Source: Sedimentibacter sp. MB31-C6
Lineage (GTDB): Bacteria > Bacillota > Clostridia > Tissierellales > Sedimentibacteraceae
Direction: 5' to 3'
NCBI RefSeq assembly: GCF_035934735.1
Contig: NZ_CP142396.1
Coordinates: 992,001-1,056,000, forward strand
Length of the DNA stretch: 64,000 bases
The number at the start of each line of letters is the position of its first letter. The first letter of the stretch is position 1. Shown one piece after another: positions 52,391 through 57,808 of the stretch. The position numbers were made by a program, and so were the translations under genes. Under the pieces are notes generated by a model that did no database searches, was not told the origin of the DNA, and was given only the letters and a program-made list of their open reading frames with translations.

Positions 52391-52516
52391 GTTACTCTAA
52401 AATATATTGCCTTACGCTATATAGTATGTTAATATAATGTCAAATGTAATCTATAAAGTTAAACATTAATATTAATAAATGTTTTATTATACATAGAAAA
52501 TATAGTGGAGGTATTT

Positions 52517-53533
52517 ATGAAAAAATTAAGTCTGTTATTGATTATTATTATGATATTATCAGTAGTTGGATGTAATCAAACGAATGATAATATCAATTCA
52601 GAAAAACCATCTGAAGATGTACAACCTGTAGAAGAGTCTAAAGACCCTGTAAATATTACAATTGCTGGTCTTAAAGGACCTACTTCAATAGGCATGATTA
52701 AAATGATTGATGAAAAAGCATTAAATAGCAGTGAATATAATGTAGAATATATTGCAGAAAGTGCTCCTGATGCATTAAATGGAAAAATAATTAATGGAGA
52801 TATACAAATTTCTTCTCTACCTATTAATGCTGCATCTGTTTTATATAATAAAACAAATGGTGGAATACAAATTATGGCACTTAATACTATAGGTAATTTG
52901 TATATTGTAGGTTCCGATGAAATATCATCAATTAATGATTTAGAAGAAAAAACATTAGGAATGAGTGCAAAAGGTTCAACTCCTGATTTTGCAATGAATT
53001 ACATTTTAAAACAAAACAGTCTTAAAGATAAAGTTGAACTTGATTATTCTCTTGATCATCCTACTCTAGCTCAAACTGTCATAGCAGAAGATACAAAAGT
53101 TGCTCTATTACCACAACCATTTGCAACTCAAGCTGTTATGAAAAATGATAATGTTAAAATACTATTGGATTTAAATGAAGAATGGAAAAATGCTACAAAT
53201 GGCGAAAGTGAGTTGTTCACTGGTTGTATAGTAGTTAATACAGAATTTGCAAAAAATAACAAGGAATTTGTAAATGATTTTTTAAAACAATATGAATCTT
53301 CTGTAAATTGGGTAATAGAAAATCCAGTTGATGCATCAGTTTTAGTTGAAAAACATGAAATTATGCCAAATGCAGCTTTAGTGGAAAAAGCAATACCTTA
53401 TTGTGGTATAACTTATCAACCAGCTATAGGTGTAAAGGAAAATATAAATAATTTTTACAAAATACTATTTGACTCAAACCCAGCTTCCGTAGGAGGAAAT
53501 TTACCTGATGAAGAATTTTATTATTCAGAGTAA
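52517..53533 (+). CDS. ABC transporter substrate-binding lipoprotein (SsuA/TauA/NMT1-like)
   Basis: A 338-residue lipoprotein. The signal MKKLSLLLIIIMILSVVGCN ends in a lipobox (SVVGC, Cys19). The mature part, ITIAGLKGPTSIGMIKMIDE and IQISSLPINAASVLYNK and DEISSINDLEEKTLGMSAKG, is the periplasmic-binding-protein fold of nitrate/sulfonate/thiamine-precursor transporters. ATG 52517 is chosen after GGAGGTATTT. The gene overlaps the permease gene by 26 bases. The ligand is not evident. Confidence 0.87.
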   Translation: MKKLSLLLIIIMILSVVGCNQTNDNINSEKPSEDVQPVEESKDPVNITIAGLKGPTSIGMIKMIDEKALNSSEYNVEYIAESAPDALNGKIINGDIQISSLPINAASVLYNKTNGGIQIMALNTIGNLYIVGSDEISSINDLEEKTLGMSAKGSTPDFAMNYILKQNSLKDKVELDYSLDHPTLAQTVIAEDTKVALLPQPFATQAVMKNDNVKILLDLNEEWKNATNGESELFTGCIVVNTEFAKNNKEFVNDFLKQYESSVNWVIENPVDASVLVEKHEIMPNAALVEKAIPYCGITYQPAIGVKENINNFYKILFDSNPASVGGNLPDEEFYYSE

Positions 53534-54260
53534 ATACAAAAATTTTTTAATAATCTTATTTTGGATAATTATATGGGAGATATTTGCACTGATTATAAAT
53601 CAGGAGATTTATCTCCCTTCTCCTATTTCAACATTTCAGTCACTATATAAACTTTTATTTTCTCAAGATACTTATATAACTATATTATACAGTACATATC
53701 GAACTTTATTTGGATTTTTTATTTCTTGTATTTTAGGAATCATATTTGGATATTTCTGTGGCATTAATAAATATTTATTTGATTTATTTAATCCATTAGT
53801 AAGCGTAATTCGCACTATTCCAGTTATGTCAATTATTATAATTGCAATTATATGGTTTAAAGATACTAATGTTCCAATATTTGTTGCATTCCTAATGTGT
53901 TTTCCTATTATTTGGACAAATACAATATATGGTATTAAAGAAACAGATATAAAACTCTTACAAATGTGTAAGGTATATAATATTAGTAAAATTCATATTG
54001 TTAAATCAGTTTATTTTTACTCAGCTCTACCTTATATTAAGTCTGGAATGTTATCTGCATTAGGTATTAGTTGGAAAGTAACTTCTGCTGCTGAAGTATT
54101 AAGTTTACCTAAATATTCAATAGGCAGTCATCTTTATGATTCCAAGGTTTATTTAGAAATACCAGATTTATTTGCATGGACTCTTATTATTCTATTCTTA
54201 AGTATTTTATTTGAAAAAACTTTGAAATTATTATTCAAAATGGGAGACTCAAATGATTAG
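53508..54260 (+). CDS. ABC transporter permease (SsuC/TauC-like)
   Basis: A 250-residue membrane protein with about six helices and the EAA-type loop LLQMCKVYNISKIHIVKSVY preceding FYSALPYIKSGMLSALGISW, typical of BPD permeases of the nitrate/sulfonate class. It overlaps both neighbours (binding protein by 26 bases, ATPase by 8), so the three proteins are coupled in translation. Confidence 0.88.
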   Translation: MKNFIIQSKYKNFLIILFWIIIWEIFALIINQEIYLPSPISTFQSLYKLLFSQDTYITILYSTYRTLFGFFISCILGIIFGYFCGINKYLFDLFNPLVSVIRTIPVMSIIIIAIIWFKDTNVPIFVAFLMCFPIIWTNTIYGIKETDIKLLQMCKVYNISKIHIVKSVYFYSALPYIKSGMLSALGISWKVTSAAEVLSLPKYSIGSHLYDSKVYLEIPDLFAWTLIILFLSILFEKTLKLLFKMGDSND

Positions 54261-54933
54261 TTTTAAAAATATATCTAAAATATATAACGATTCATATATA
54301 CTTAAAAATTTCAATATAACATTTGATGATAATAAAATTACATGTTTATTTGGACCTTCTGGAGTTGGAAAAACAACCATTGCTAATATATTAGCAGGTT
54401 TGATTCAAGTAGACAGCGGTAATATAACAGGTACTGAAAATTCATTATACTCTTATGTTTTTCAAGAACCAAGACTTCTTAAATGGTATAGTGTTTATGA
54501 TAATATTGATTTTGTATTAAGAGATGTATATGAATTAGATGAACGAAAAAAAATAATAGAAAATTATATTAACATGGTTGAACTTTTTAATTACAAAGAT
54601 TATCTTCCAAAAAACCTAAGTGGAGGAATGGCACAAAGAGTTTCACTTGCCAGGGCCTTTGCATATCCTTCAAATATTTTAATAATGGATGAACCTTTTA
54701 AGGGCTTGGACTTAAAACTAAAAAAAGAAATGATACAATCATTTCTAAAATTGTGGAGCAAAAGTAAAAGAACAGTAATATTCATAACTCATGATATTGA
54801 AGAGGCTTCATCACTATCAGATACCATCTATTATATTAAAAACCATCCAGCTGAAATAATAAAAAAGATAAGCAAAAATAACGATATTAATAATGATGAA
54901 ATAAAAAAACTATTGTTAAATTTAAGTAGTTAA
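54253..54933 (+). CDS. ABC transporter ATP-binding protein (SsuB/TauB-like)
   Basis: A 226-residue ATPase: Walker A GPSGVGKTT near residue 37, Q-loop FQEPRLLKW, signature NLSGGMAQRVSLARAF, Walker B ILIMDEPFKGLD, and the switch His ITHDIEEA. All positions are intact. FQEPRLLPW-type text is usual for the sulfonate/nitrate/taurine group. Its 3' end overlaps convergently the Crp/Fnr gene by 12 bases. Confidence 0.92.
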   Translation: MISFKNISKIYNDSYILKNFNITFDDNKITCLFGPSGVGKTTIANILAGLIQVDSGNITGTENSLYSYVFQEPRLLKWYSVYDNIDFVLRDVYELDERKKIIENYINMVELFNYKDYLPKNLSGGMAQRVSLARAFAYPSNILIMDEPFKGLDLKLKKEMIQSFLKLWSKSKRTVIFITHDIEEASSLSDTIYYIKNHPAEIIKKISKNNDINNDEIKKLLLNLSS

Positions 54934-55596
54934 TTGTAAAAGCTTCTTCTTATCAGTTATTAGAATATTTCCTCTTTCTGTTTTTACATAACCTTCATTT
55001 TGAAAATACTTGAGCATACGACTTACAACCTCTCTGGCACTGCCTATATTCTTTGCTATATCTTCATGAGTAATATATAATGTATTTGATTTTTCTATGT
55101 TTGATTGTTCTAATAAAAATATAGCTAATCTTTTATCGAAACTCATAAATAGTACTTGTTCCATTATCCACATAACATCTGAAAACCTCGATAATGTTAT
55201 TTCATTAGTAAATTTTTGCACATAAATATTATTTTCACTTAATCTCATGTATATTTCTGATGGTATTAACAAAATCTCACTATTTTTTTCTGCTTCAATA
55301 TAAACATCAAAAGTAATATTATTTAAAGCGCATGAGGCAGACATTATACATACATCATCTTCAAACAGTCTGTATAATGTGACTTCCTTCCCGTTTTCTG
55401 AAAGTATAAAAGTTCTCAACTGGCCACTTTTAACTAAAATTAACCCTTTGCAATCATCTAATCCTTCATATACTATTTTGTTTTTTGGAAATGATTTTTT
55501 TTCTATATTGTCAATTAAATTTTTTTGTTCCCTTGAATTTAATTTAGTCCAAAATTCCAACCTATTTAACAAATTCAATTCATTGCCTTCAATCAT
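54922..55596 (-). CDS. Crp/Fnr-family transcriptional regulator
   Basis: A 224-residue regulator with an N-terminal cyclic-nucleotide-like beta barrel (GLILVKSGQLRTFILSENGK, EVTLYRLFEDDVCIMSASC) and a C-terminal winged helix (ITHEDIAKNIGSAREVVSRM, LKYFQNEGYVKTERGNILIT). SAREVVSR is the DNA-reading helix with the E..SR pattern of FNR-type proteins. There is no four-cysteine N-terminal cluster, so it is not an oxygen-sensing FNR of the classical kind. ATG 55596 after GGAGGTAATA. Adjacent to the transporter genes and the selenoprotein pair, each of which it could control. Confidence 0.87.
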   Translation of the reverse strand: MIEGNELNLLNRLEFWTKLNSREQKNLIDNIEKKSFPKNKIVYEGLDDCKGLILVKSGQLRTFILSENGKEVTLYRLFEDDVCIMSASCALNNITFDVYIEAEKNSEILLIPSEIYMRLSENNIYVQKFTNEITLSRFSDVMWIMEQVLFMSFDKRLAIFLLEQSNIEKSNTLYITHEDIAKNIGSAREVVSRMLKYFQNEGYVKTERGNILITDKKKLLQLTT

Positions 55597-55697
55597 TATT
55601 ACCTCCAAAAATTCTTGACTTTTTGTTAATTTATCATATCATATAATAATAGAACAATAAAGCATTACATAATTTTACATAATAATATTTTTACTTT

Positions 55698-55710
55698 GTG
55701 ACTATGTCAC
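55698..55710. promoter_or_regulatory. candidate Crp/Fnr-type operator
   Basis: GTGAC-TAT-GTCAC, a perfect 5-base dyad inside TTTGTGACTATGTCACTG, similar to the TGTGA...TCACA class of Crp/Fnr sites though one base shorter in the spacer. It lies between the divergent Crp/Fnr gene and the selenoprotein genes, 67 bases before the first selenoprotein ATG. Confidence 0.5.
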
Positions 55711-55776
55711 TGAATTATATGAATTAAAATGATATTATATGATTATAATAAAGAACAAAAGGAGGATAAGAATAAT

Positions 55777-56052
55777 ATGAATATTAAGTTAACTAAAGCT
55801 GCAAAAGAAAAATTAGTAGAACTTCAACAAAATAATGAACCAATTAAAATGAAAATAACAGGTTATTCCTGATGCGGTGCCGAATTTGGCATTGTTTCGG
55901 AGAAACAATTAGAAAATGAAAATTCTTATAATGTTGAAGGTATTGATATAATTGTATCTGAAGAATTAGAAGGTGCAGTTAAAGGGGCAGAAATAGATTA
56001 TCAAACAGGTTTCTTTAAAAAGGGTTTCGAAATCAAACCATTGTTTTCTTAG
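55777..56052 (+). CDS. HesB-like selenoprotein 1 (in-frame UGA = Sec32)
   Basis: A 91-residue product if the UGA at 55870-55872 is read as selenocysteine: MNIKLTKAAKEKLVELQQNN, then KITGYS-Sec-CGAEFGIVSEKQ, and EIDYQTGFFKKGFEIKP. Layout and size match the HesB/IscA-like fold, in which a cysteine of the central motif binds iron or an Fe-S cluster; Sec takes a place there, next to Cys33. The ribosome site AAAGGAGGATAAG is strong, the frame is open on both sides of UGA and the amino-acid text is conserved with the next gene through the UGA. A hairpin at the right distance follows. A conventional reading would stop after 31 residues. Function unproven. Confidence 0.88.
55891..55909 (+). promoter_or_regulatory. 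SECIS-like hairpin of selenoprotein 1
   Basis: ATTGTTTC, loop GGA, GAAACAAT: an 8-bp stem whose loop begins 27 bases after the UGA, within the usual distance of bacterial SECIS elements, with a G in the apical loop. The identical stem-loop recurs in the next gene. Confidence 0.75.
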
Positions 56053-56063
56053 GAGGGATATAA

Positions 56064-56366
56064 ATGATAAAATTCTCGATAACTGATAAAGCAAAGAAAA
56101 AAATGTCAGAATTACAAAGAGAAAATATCCCAATTAAATTGACTAAAATAAAAGTAGGTTGAAGTGGTTACTTTTATGGTATTGTTTCGGAGAAACAAAA
56201 AGAAAATGATATAATCTATGAAGTAGATGGATATAATATAATAGTTTCAAGTGATGCTGAAGATACTCTTGCTGAAGCTAAGATTGATTATCTAACTGGA
56301 TTTTTTAGAAAAACTTTTACAGTTAATCCTAAATATAAATCAACTGATAAAATTAATAACATTTAA
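56064..56366 (+). CDS. HesB-like selenoprotein 2 (in-frame UGA = Sec33)
   Basis: A 100-residue paralogue of the preceding gene if UGA at 56160-56162 is selenocysteine: MIKFSITDKAKKKMSELQRE, then KIKVG-Sec-SGYFYGIVSEKQ, and AKIDYLTGFFRKTFTVNP. Eleven bases separate it from the first gene, whose stop overlaps the ribosome site TAGGAGGG. Unlike the first copy there is no cysteine after Sec but SG, closer to the usual HesB-like selenoprotein pattern, so the two may have different roles or work as a heterodimer. The selenocysteine machinery is outside this window. Confidence 0.88.
56181..56198 (+). promoter_or_regulatory. SECIS-like hairpin of selenoprotein 2
   Basis: TTGTTTC, loop GGA, GAAACAA: a 7-bp stem, its loop 27-29 bases after the UGA, the same distance as in the first gene. 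The bases from ATTGTTTC to GAAACAA are identical in both genes. Confidence 0.75.
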
Positions 56367-56502: not shown

Positions 56503-56543
56503 GCAGGTTTCTCATCATTTAGATGGGATTACCTGCTTTTTTT
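56503..56543 (+). terminator. terminator of the selenoprotein pair
   Basis: GCAGGT...ACCTGC with inner CTCATC/GATGGG pairing, followed by eight Ts. It lies 137 bases after the second selenoprotein stop. Confidence 0.75.
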
Positions 56544-56595: not shown

Positions 56596-56877
56596 ATGTA
56601 TAAACTATGGGCAAAGAAAATTAAAAATAACAAAATTATTTCTTCTCTGAATATAAAGAACGATGAAAATTTATCACCTTTAGAAAAAAGAGAAAAATGT
56701 TTTAAAGAAATATGCCAAAAATTTGATATTAGTGTACCTTTGTGGTTATCAAAACATAACTTTGAGTTCAATGAATTCAAATATGTTACTTTTTATCCAA
56801 ATGACTTTATTGATGAAATCGACTTTGATAAACTAGAAATAGAAATGATTGATGACGGTAAAAAAAATAAAAAATAA
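56596..56877 (+). CDS. conserved clostridial hypothetical protein
   Basis: A 93-residue soluble protein (MYKLWAKKIKNNKIISSLNI) with KCFKEICQKFDISVPLWLSK and FYPNDFIDEIDFDKLEIEMI. I recall similar short proteins in many Clostridia, but no function. AAAAGAGGATAAT lies before ATG. It has its own terminator and is in the same direction as the selenoprotein genes. Confidence 0.7.
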   Translation: MYKLWAKKIKNNKIISSLNIKNDENLSPLEKREKCFKEICQKFDISVPLWLSKHNFEFNEFKYVTFYPNDFIDEIDFDKLEIEMIDDGKKNKK

Positions 56878-56998: not shown

Positions 56999-57289
56999 CT
57001 AAAGTCCAAATCCATTATCAAAGTTAAATTGATATAATACTACAAGTAATAAGAAAAACCATAAAAGTGTATCTAATTCTATTCCAGTATCACATTGACA
57101 TACAATACAAACTAAAATTAAAAAGAAAAATAAAAGAGAAGAATCTATTCCTCTATCTCCAGCTACTCTATCACGGATTCTTGGAACACATGGTTGATTA
57201 ATTGGTCCCCTTCCATAGTCATGTTGAGCATTTATATCTTCATTTACATCTTTTACTTCAACAATATTTTCATGTTTACAACTATCCAT
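56999..57289 (-). CDS. hypothetical protein with hydrophobic C-terminal half
   Basis: A 96-residue protein. Residues 1-48 are charged with two Cys and one His pair (MDSCKHENIVEVKDVNEDIN; PRIRDRVAGDRG); residues 50-90 are hydrophobic (SLLFFFLILVCIVCQC and LLWFFLLLVVLYQF). This leucine/phenylalanine-rich tail resembles small spore-associated proteins of Clostridia and Bacilli, a guess only. AGGAGGTAATT directly precedes ATG. Confidence 0.6.
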   Translation of the reverse strand: MDSCKHENIVEVKDVNEDINAQHDYGRGPINQPCVPRIRDRVAGDRGIDSSLLFFFLILVCIVCQCDTGIELDTLLWFFLLLVVLYQFNFDNGFGL

Positions 57290-57610: not shown

Positions 57611-57808
57611 ATGGATAAATTCGCTTTAGTAATAGTTATTATAGGAGCAATAAACTGGGGTCTAATAGCATTATTTCAATTTGATCTCGTTGCTGCTATA
57701 TTCGGAGGACAAACTGCAATTTTTAGCCGTTTGGTGTATGGACTAGTAGGATTAGCAGGTTTATACTGCATCACATTATTGTTCAATGAACGAGAAAGAA
57801 TTGACTGA
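57611..57808 (+). CDS. DUF378 family membrane protein
   Basis: A 65-residue protein with two membrane helices: FALVIVIIGAINWGLIALFQ and SRLVYGLVGLAGLYCITLLF, with the INWGL and YxLVGLAGLY motifs of DUF378. The family is widespread in Firmicutes with unknown role. AAGGAGGATAATAATTT precedes ATG. It ends in TGA, showing that TGA is a normal stop in this genome. Confidence 0.92.
   Translation: MDKFALVIVIIGAINWGLIALFQFDLVAAIFGGQTAIFSRLVYGLVGLAGLYCITLLFNERERID

Follow-up and report, generated by a model that had tools for sequence, protein, structure and literature searches.

Within a 64,000-nucleotide window of the Sedimentibacter sp. MB31-C6 genome (the whole stretch of DNA analysed), two adjacent HesB/IscA-like reading frames, here called copies A and B, are almost certainly genuine selenoprotein genes, each with an internal UGA that would be decoded as selenocysteine (Sec) by SelB and Sec-tRNASec under the direction of an in-frame 17-nucleotide hairpin. 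A preliminary description made from the sequence alone had read them as tandem HesB-like selenoprotein genes, a reading supported by the Sec machinery of the genome, by orthologues and by covariation in the hairpin. With moderate confidence, we favour as the best overall explanation two Sec proteins with a redox role: the pair would be partners that handle thiols, sulfur or metals by means of Sec, within a redox regulon linked to thioredoxin.

HesB-like selenoproteins have been known since 2005–2006, as listed in the parts consulted of PMC1242214 (2005) and PMC1794560 (2006), so the pair is not a new kind. Apparently new are the tandem with Sec in both copies, the loss of the Cys residues and of the UxGP motif, the transporter locus and an element shared with a thioredoxin. 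The consulted parts of the open literature searched describe no Sedimentibacter or double-Sec tandem HesB pair, and overlap with the Haft papers is possible. With a conserved transporter beside the pair, an upstream element shared with one thioredoxin and a membrane ferredoxin, and a natural Sec-to-Cys case, an orphan family gains named partners to test.

UGA-containing genes in the window and in the genus

55777–56052, plus strand: copy A, putative HesB/IscA-like selenoprotein gene; 91 amino acids, motif Sec-Cys-Gly-Ala, otherwise Cys-free
55870–55872, plus strand: UGA, predicted Sec 32 of copy A, from the frame and from UGA in 16/16 A loci of the genus
56064–56366, plus strand: copy B, putative HesB/IscA-like selenoprotein gene; 100 amino acids, Sec the sole Cys/Sec residue
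56160–56162, plus strand: UGA, predicted Sec 33 of copy B, from the frame and orthologues
55760–55765, plus strand: ribosome-binding site AGGAGG of copy A, from the sequence
56051–56056, plus strand: ribosome-binding site AGGAGG of copy B, overlapping the copy A stop codon

Frames of 91 and 100 codons with a single internal UGA in each had been described beforehand, together with the stretches GIVSEKQ and IDYxTGFF in both copies, Sec-Cys in A, Sec-Ser-Gly in B and a strong ribosome site for each gene, and all are present at the positions given. A and B are 48% identical across 86 amino acids (E = 9e-27). A lack of conservation downstream of the UGA had been named as grounds for doubt; the sequence there is conserved. 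The UGA stands at the same place in the A orthologues of 16 genus loci (a count that omits the broken A of G010), and 14 loci have a full, UGA-bearing B orthologue. Behind the UGA, the uncorrected ratio of nonsynonymous to synonymous change (pN/pS) has a median of 0.31 for copy A (range 0.09–0.63; 66 pairs from 12 loci chosen out of 16) and 0.37 for copy B (range 0.08–0.61; 55 pairs from 11 chosen out of 14 UGA loci). The codon, residue and element counts for A and B leave out L026 and L027 (the single copy of G025 and the broken copy of G010), the order-level loci L031–L034, the additional A-type copies C118 (in G009) and C323 (in G011) and the B that is only partial in G012; the B codon count also leaves out L022 B and L030 B, which have no UGA.

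All 16 A orthologues read UCGA (U standing for Sec) with no further Cys, and the UGA-bearing B orthologues have Sec only and zero Cys (14/14; two Cys past the UGA stop of L019 B belong to the next gene and were excluded), in a motif that is USGY here and USGx, UAGx or UNRY in relatives. On this pattern A may bridge its Sec and Cys in a vicinal selenylsulfide, which B alone cannot, and B would have to work with a partner chain or thiol. The functional split between the copies that had been suggested fits these residues. If B is redox-active, its lone Sec without any Cys to pair would make it unusual among redox selenoproteins.

A search of the genome for selA, selB, selC and selD had been proposed; selA, selB, selD and tRNASec are all present, and lie together in a selD-selA-selB-tRNASec cluster. 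The selD gene (L209:7429-8475) is itself interrupted by UGA (AAG-U-AAK), at what we take to be the active-site position of SelD; with that UGA taken as a stop, the listed frame begins late, at a TTG.

Across the 25 genus genomes searched, A and B are adjacent with UGA in both in 12. A types alone occur in G009, G011 (which additionally has a distant HesB, L068) and G024, and B alone, with UGA, in G005, G015 and, as a partial copy, G012; G010 has a broken A with TAA inside the match. In G013, a B with Leu and no UGA precedes A, and in G016, a genome 97% complete, B has Cys (TGC) at the UGA position and its hairpin is destroyed. No A/B homologue was found at E 0.001 in G001, G004, G017 and G020, and no SelB at E 1e-90 in G006, G016, G019, G020 and G022. 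A tree of 80 rows and 99 columns, weakly resolved and including L026, unites A, B and the single G025 copy in a clade supported at 100/100. The B sequences form a single group (100/99) with a long branch, which falls within the A sequences at lower support. Judged from these few columns, a duplication within Sedimentibacter or at its base would have given rise to A and B, with B diverging faster afterwards.

The hairpin behind each UGA

55892–55908, plus strand: candidate selenocysteine insertion sequence (SECIS) hairpin of copy A; 7 pairs and a GGA loop that begins 27 bases after the UGA
56182–56198, plus strand: candidate SECIS hairpin of copy B; 17 bases identical to those of A

The identical stem-loop noted beforehand behind each UGA is real but longer than claimed (TTGTTTC-GGA-GAAACAA), and the 27-base distance given for it holds for the start of the GGA loop but not for the GTTTC arm, which starts 22 bases after the UGA. 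Allowing up to 2 mismatches, the pattern TTGTTTCGGNGAAACAA matches four times in the window, namely both hairpins on both strands (mean of 0.07 in shuffles). In the 16 A orthologues the hairpin reads TTGTTTCGGAGAAACA, and the next base is A in 15 and G in 1; B orthologue hairpins are variable, with loops GGA, GGT, GGC, GTC or GTT and with G-U pairs.

Pairing is kept in 203/203 cells across 29 distinct UGA-bearing sequences, compared with 41–78% when the alignment is slid out of register; the alignment omits L022 B (Leu, one pair lost) and L030 B (Cys, hairpin gone) and keeps L026. Two pairs are changed on both sides, which 1/500 shuffles equalled. Among the B orthologues, L019 B and L020 B each have a U-A pair replaced by C-G. 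Conserved residues encoded in the stem use a single codon in 5/6 and 3/5 cases, against 2/19 and 0/22 elsewhere, and Ser is encoded by TCG in 16/16 and 14/14. The SECIS interpretation is thus backed by covariation and nearly frozen synonymous codons, and on this comparative evidence the hairpin is under RNA-level selection. In Rfam, no family reaches its gathering score, and the matches below it are at chance level.

Some observations weigh against selenocysteine decoding. When copy A is folded as a single sequence, the lowest energy goes to another hairpin, closer to the UGA, and the fold of copy B is no better than shuffles. G006, G019 and G022 carry UGA pairs yet SelB was not found in them, a gap that their completeness (74, 87 and 81%) makes likely to be one of assembly. 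The sense codons of homologues, proposed as a check, speak on both sides: Cys in G016 B, where no SelB was detected, is an exchange of Sec for Cys, whereas Leu in G013 B, despite the SelB of that genome, is an exception to it. The Leu and the unremarkable stability of the B hairpin would suit a UGA that is an ordinary stop with remnants behind it, an explanation that we regard as very improbable, given that both UGA flanks are conserved in 16 and 14 loci, that the pN/pS medians behind the UGA lie well below 1, and that covariation, frozen codons and the Cys of a relative without detected SelB all speak for decoding.

Upstream element, regulator and transporter locus

54922–55608, minus strand: Crp/Fnr-family regulator, divergent from copy A
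55697–55713, plus strand: conserved element TGTGACTATGTCACTGA, candidate Crp/Fnr-type activator site, from comparison of loci
55733–55738, plus strand: candidate -10 box TATTAT, 19 bases behind the element
55744–55749, plus strand: better-matching TATAAT, 30 bases behind the element

Upstream of the first HesB gene lies an element of the form TGT[GA]AC-NNN-GTCACTGA, present with up to 3 mismatches before 17/19 HesB loci; in L022 it precedes A, there the second gene. The same element stands before 17/17 orthologues of one thioredoxin, compared with 0/13 paralogue loci (5–7 mismatches; 13 of the 22 paralogue matches had loci and were examined), and before 7/7 NapH-like ferredoxin genes, which are present in 7/25 genomes. 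The background rate is 31/3150 stretches of 200 bp, true sites counted in. Beyond the window, this genome has copies at L143:1501-1517 (C1:574294), upstream of a thioredoxin, and at L145:1501-1517 (C1:2468428), upstream of a NapH/MauN-like ferredoxin; these copies suggest a small redox regulon. The element also travels with A, being present at the off-transporter copies in G009 and G011 (L021, L016).

An alignment of the regulator with 10 of 16 others found (11 sequences in all) shows C53, C87, C93 and R192-E193-V-V-S-R197 to be invariant; a helix of this Crp-like kind, R-E-V-V-S-R, would prefer TGTGA. Only here and in G024 does the regulator gene diverge from copy A, and the locus itself includes it only here and in S. 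acidaminivorans. What ties the regulator to the HesB pair is the shared upstream element, adjacency being limited to two genomes. The G009 regulator gene is adjacent to, and divergent from, the element-bearing thioredoxin gene.

At class II Crp/Fnr promoters, the activator site is centred near -41.5 with a -10 box downstream. By eye, a -10-like box lies 18 bases behind the element in 16/17 thioredoxin loci and 19 in the other; boxes 16 to 19 bases behind the element of HesB loci are weaker. Were the nearer box the promoter, the centre of the element would fall near -40, and its spacing would be roughly that of a class II activator site, a fit that looks good at the thioredoxin loci and less clear at the HesB loci.

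The element may instead be the site of a different regulator or of an alternative sigma factor, with the Crp/Fnr gene an accidental neighbour, which we rate as a substantial though lesser chance. The centre of the element is odd (TGTGA-N5-TCACT), and textbook Crp/Fnr sites have even spacing; G001, G015 and G019 have the thioredoxin and its element, and no Crp/Fnr orthologue at E 1e-40; and no element with up to 2 mismatches lies near the Crp/Fnr gene in 15 loci outside this genome and G024, a limit that the G009 thioredoxin site, with 3 mismatches, exceeds. Further strain on activation by Crp/Fnr comes from two of the 19 loci lacking the element (G008, G016), from L010–L013, where an exact TATAAT sits 29–30 bases behind the element and off class II spacing, and from the weak association between Crp/Fnr orthologue and thioredoxin presence (14, 3, 3 and 5 of 25; p 0.06). 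Against a different regulator stand the divergent placement of the Crp/Fnr gene, next to A in this genome and G024 and next to the thioredoxin in G009, the invariant Crp-like R-E-x-x-x-R helix and the regular 18-base spacing at the thioredoxin loci, which would centre the element near -40.

52505–53533, plus strand: substrate-binding lipoprotein (ABC importer of the NMT1/SsuA type), with whose gene the conserved locus opens; from family scans
53508–54260, plus strand: ABC permease, SsuC/SaoP-like but under those cut-offs, from family scans
54253–54933, plus strand: ABC ATPase, whose gene is next upstream of the HesB genes at most loci of the genus
56596–56877, plus strand: 93-amino-acid protein of unknown family, the next locus gene in many Sedimentibacter

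An ABC transporter and a Crp/Fnr gene had been noted beside the pair; the transporter link extends to most genus loci compared, whereas the regulator is adjacent only here and in one relative. In most of these loci the order is binding protein, permease, ATPase, A and/or B and often the 93-amino-acid protein, between GltX/GNAT and PmbA/TldD/TyrS; the A-type copies L041 (G011) and L057 (G009) lie elsewhere, without a transporter. The locus continues into a NifU/IscU-type scaffold and a MoeB/ThiF-like protein in S. saalensis, and in S. acidaminivorans genes judged by eye to encode acetolactate synthase separate A from the 93-amino-acid gene. At E 0.01 the binding protein has a single match in the PDB, 3hn0, which is labelled a nitrate transport protein. 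As a point against a transporter partnership, the link is not general: only one of 49 other loci, L068, has permease, binding protein and ATPase beside HesB, L117 has distant permease and ATPase matches about 2–4 kb off, and 11 more have just generic ATPase matches.

In L068 (2047-5181), the distant HesB selenoprotein (UVGP, no C-terminal Cys) is directly downstream of a taurine-type ABC transporter and also adjoins genes for proteins like LysR (by eye) and CoA-disulfide reductase. In the window, a hairpin GCAGGT...ACCTGC followed by a T run (56503-56543), located between copy B and the 93-amino-acid gene, is absent from the list of the terminator scan; the surrounding 141 bases give a better fold than any of 200 shuffles (z -2.84), and the hairpin is possibly an attenuator or the end of the A-B transcript. 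Small conserved genes at 56999-57289 (96 amino acids; no NCBIfam or Pfam match) and 57611-57808 (65 amino acids) follow the locus in most genus loci compared.

The importer and Sec proteins could together bind mercury-like species, as in the handling of heavy metals or organometals by the selenocysteine-assisted organometal (SAO) operon. Sec is a strong metal ligand, HesB genes lie near CopA in L065, L066, L067 and L140, and the permease resembles SaoP (94.7 bits), the ATPase SaoA (140 bits) and, weakly, the binding protein SaoX (25.9 bits). These scores are far under the cut-offs (295, 360 and 300), generic families score equally well, and a scan of ten proteins (A, B and eight neighbours) lists SaoB, SaoC, SaoL or SaoT for none of them, for the ATPase among the best 25 of 209 families; we therefore consider such a role improbable. 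Like this locus, the SAO operon, in the parts consulted of PMC13188914, groups selenoprotein genes with ABC transporter genes; unlike it, the local ABC subunits have no UGA and no Sao cut-off is reached here.

For the thioredoxin-linked redox role that we favour, the mechanism as a whole is tentative, at somewhat below an even chance. An anaerobic redox signal would lead the Crp/Fnr-type activator to turn on A and B, the dedicated thioredoxin and the NapH-like ferredoxin; the Sec residues of A and B would bind or reduce sulfur or metal species, possibly imported by the adjoining ABC importer, and thioredoxin would recycle them. A more specific version, a two-part device in which A and B form a mixed IscA-fold complex with three Se/S atoms from two chains, supplied by its own ABC importer, recycled by its own thioredoxin and controlled by a thiol-sensing Crp/Fnr regulator, is unlikely as a whole; if true, it would assign a pathway to HesB-type selenoproteins.

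Comparison with known HesB and IscA proteins

With the UGA read as Cys, A and B score 27.7 and 29.7 bits against Pfam PF01521 (gathering cut-off 26.3), 23.6 and 18.5 bits against TIGR01911 HesB_rel_seleno (cut-off 66.35) and 39.5 and 38.7 bits against NF038090 IscA_HesB_Se (cut-off 85), and copy A is modelled with an IscA/SufA fold. The proposed HesB/IscA identity therefore holds at the superfamily level, barely over the PF01521 cut-off, but does not extend to the curated selenoprotein subfamily. Those cut-offs are strict, since none of four relatives scanned, two of them with UxGP, reaches either. A third HesB-like gene of this genome (L001:1501-1770; C1:1496306), without UGA, is above the TIGR01911 cut-off.

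A-type carriers of the IscA/SufA kind have three ligand Cys, the first Cys and a C-terminal CxC. A and B could replace these as a mixed-dimer Fe-S carrier, the Sec and Cys of A joining the Sec of B, a proposal that we find rather unlikely. The pair keeps just the first of the three positions, as Sec, and the C-terminal Cys pair is missing from all 32 genus proteins counted (16 A, 16 B), so neither chain should be an ordinary A-type Fe-S carrier alone; in addition, the curated carrier cut-offs are not reached, some genomes hold A or B alone, and the co-controlled thioredoxin points to redox chemistry.

Outside the loci of the pair, UxGP, given as the HesB-like motif in Table 1 of PMC13188914, occurs in 42 of 46 UGA-bearing homologues, and 41 of these 42 have a Cys within the last 15 residues. 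Neither A (UCGA) nor B (USGY) has the motif. The four homologues without it (L053 USGA, L116 USGV, L119 UCGA, L126 URGA) have no Cys in the last 15 residues, and the UCGA among them means that the A-type motif is not confined to Sedimentibacter. The 46 were drawn from family, order and class loci, with L068 from a genus genome; the class set comprises 50 proteins, after removal of HesB matches below 40 bits (for example, L138) and the duplicate loci L137 and L139.

Tandem HesB pairs elsewhere in the class (L066, L067, L103, L109) likewise consist of two adjacent HesB genes but, unlike A and B, have one copy with UGA and the other without; CcdA, TlpA and CopA are nearby in L066 and L067. HesB selenoprotein genes adjoin CcdA and TlpA-like genes at L059, L063, L066 and L067, and a CopA-type ATPase is near HesB genes at L065, L066, L067 and L140. 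The HesB-like selenoprotein of Methanococcus maripaludis, identified through mutagenesis and 75Se labelling and described in the part consulted of PMC11097638 as not clear in function, is archaeal and resembles the pair in being described as HesB-like. With the HesB-like selenoprotein family (TIGR01911; NF038090), the pair shares the IscA/HesB domain, a length of about 90–100 amino acids and a UGA-encoded Sec at the first conserved Cys; it differs in scoring under both cut-offs, in lacking UxGP and the C-terminal Cys, and in being a tandem with Sec in both copies.
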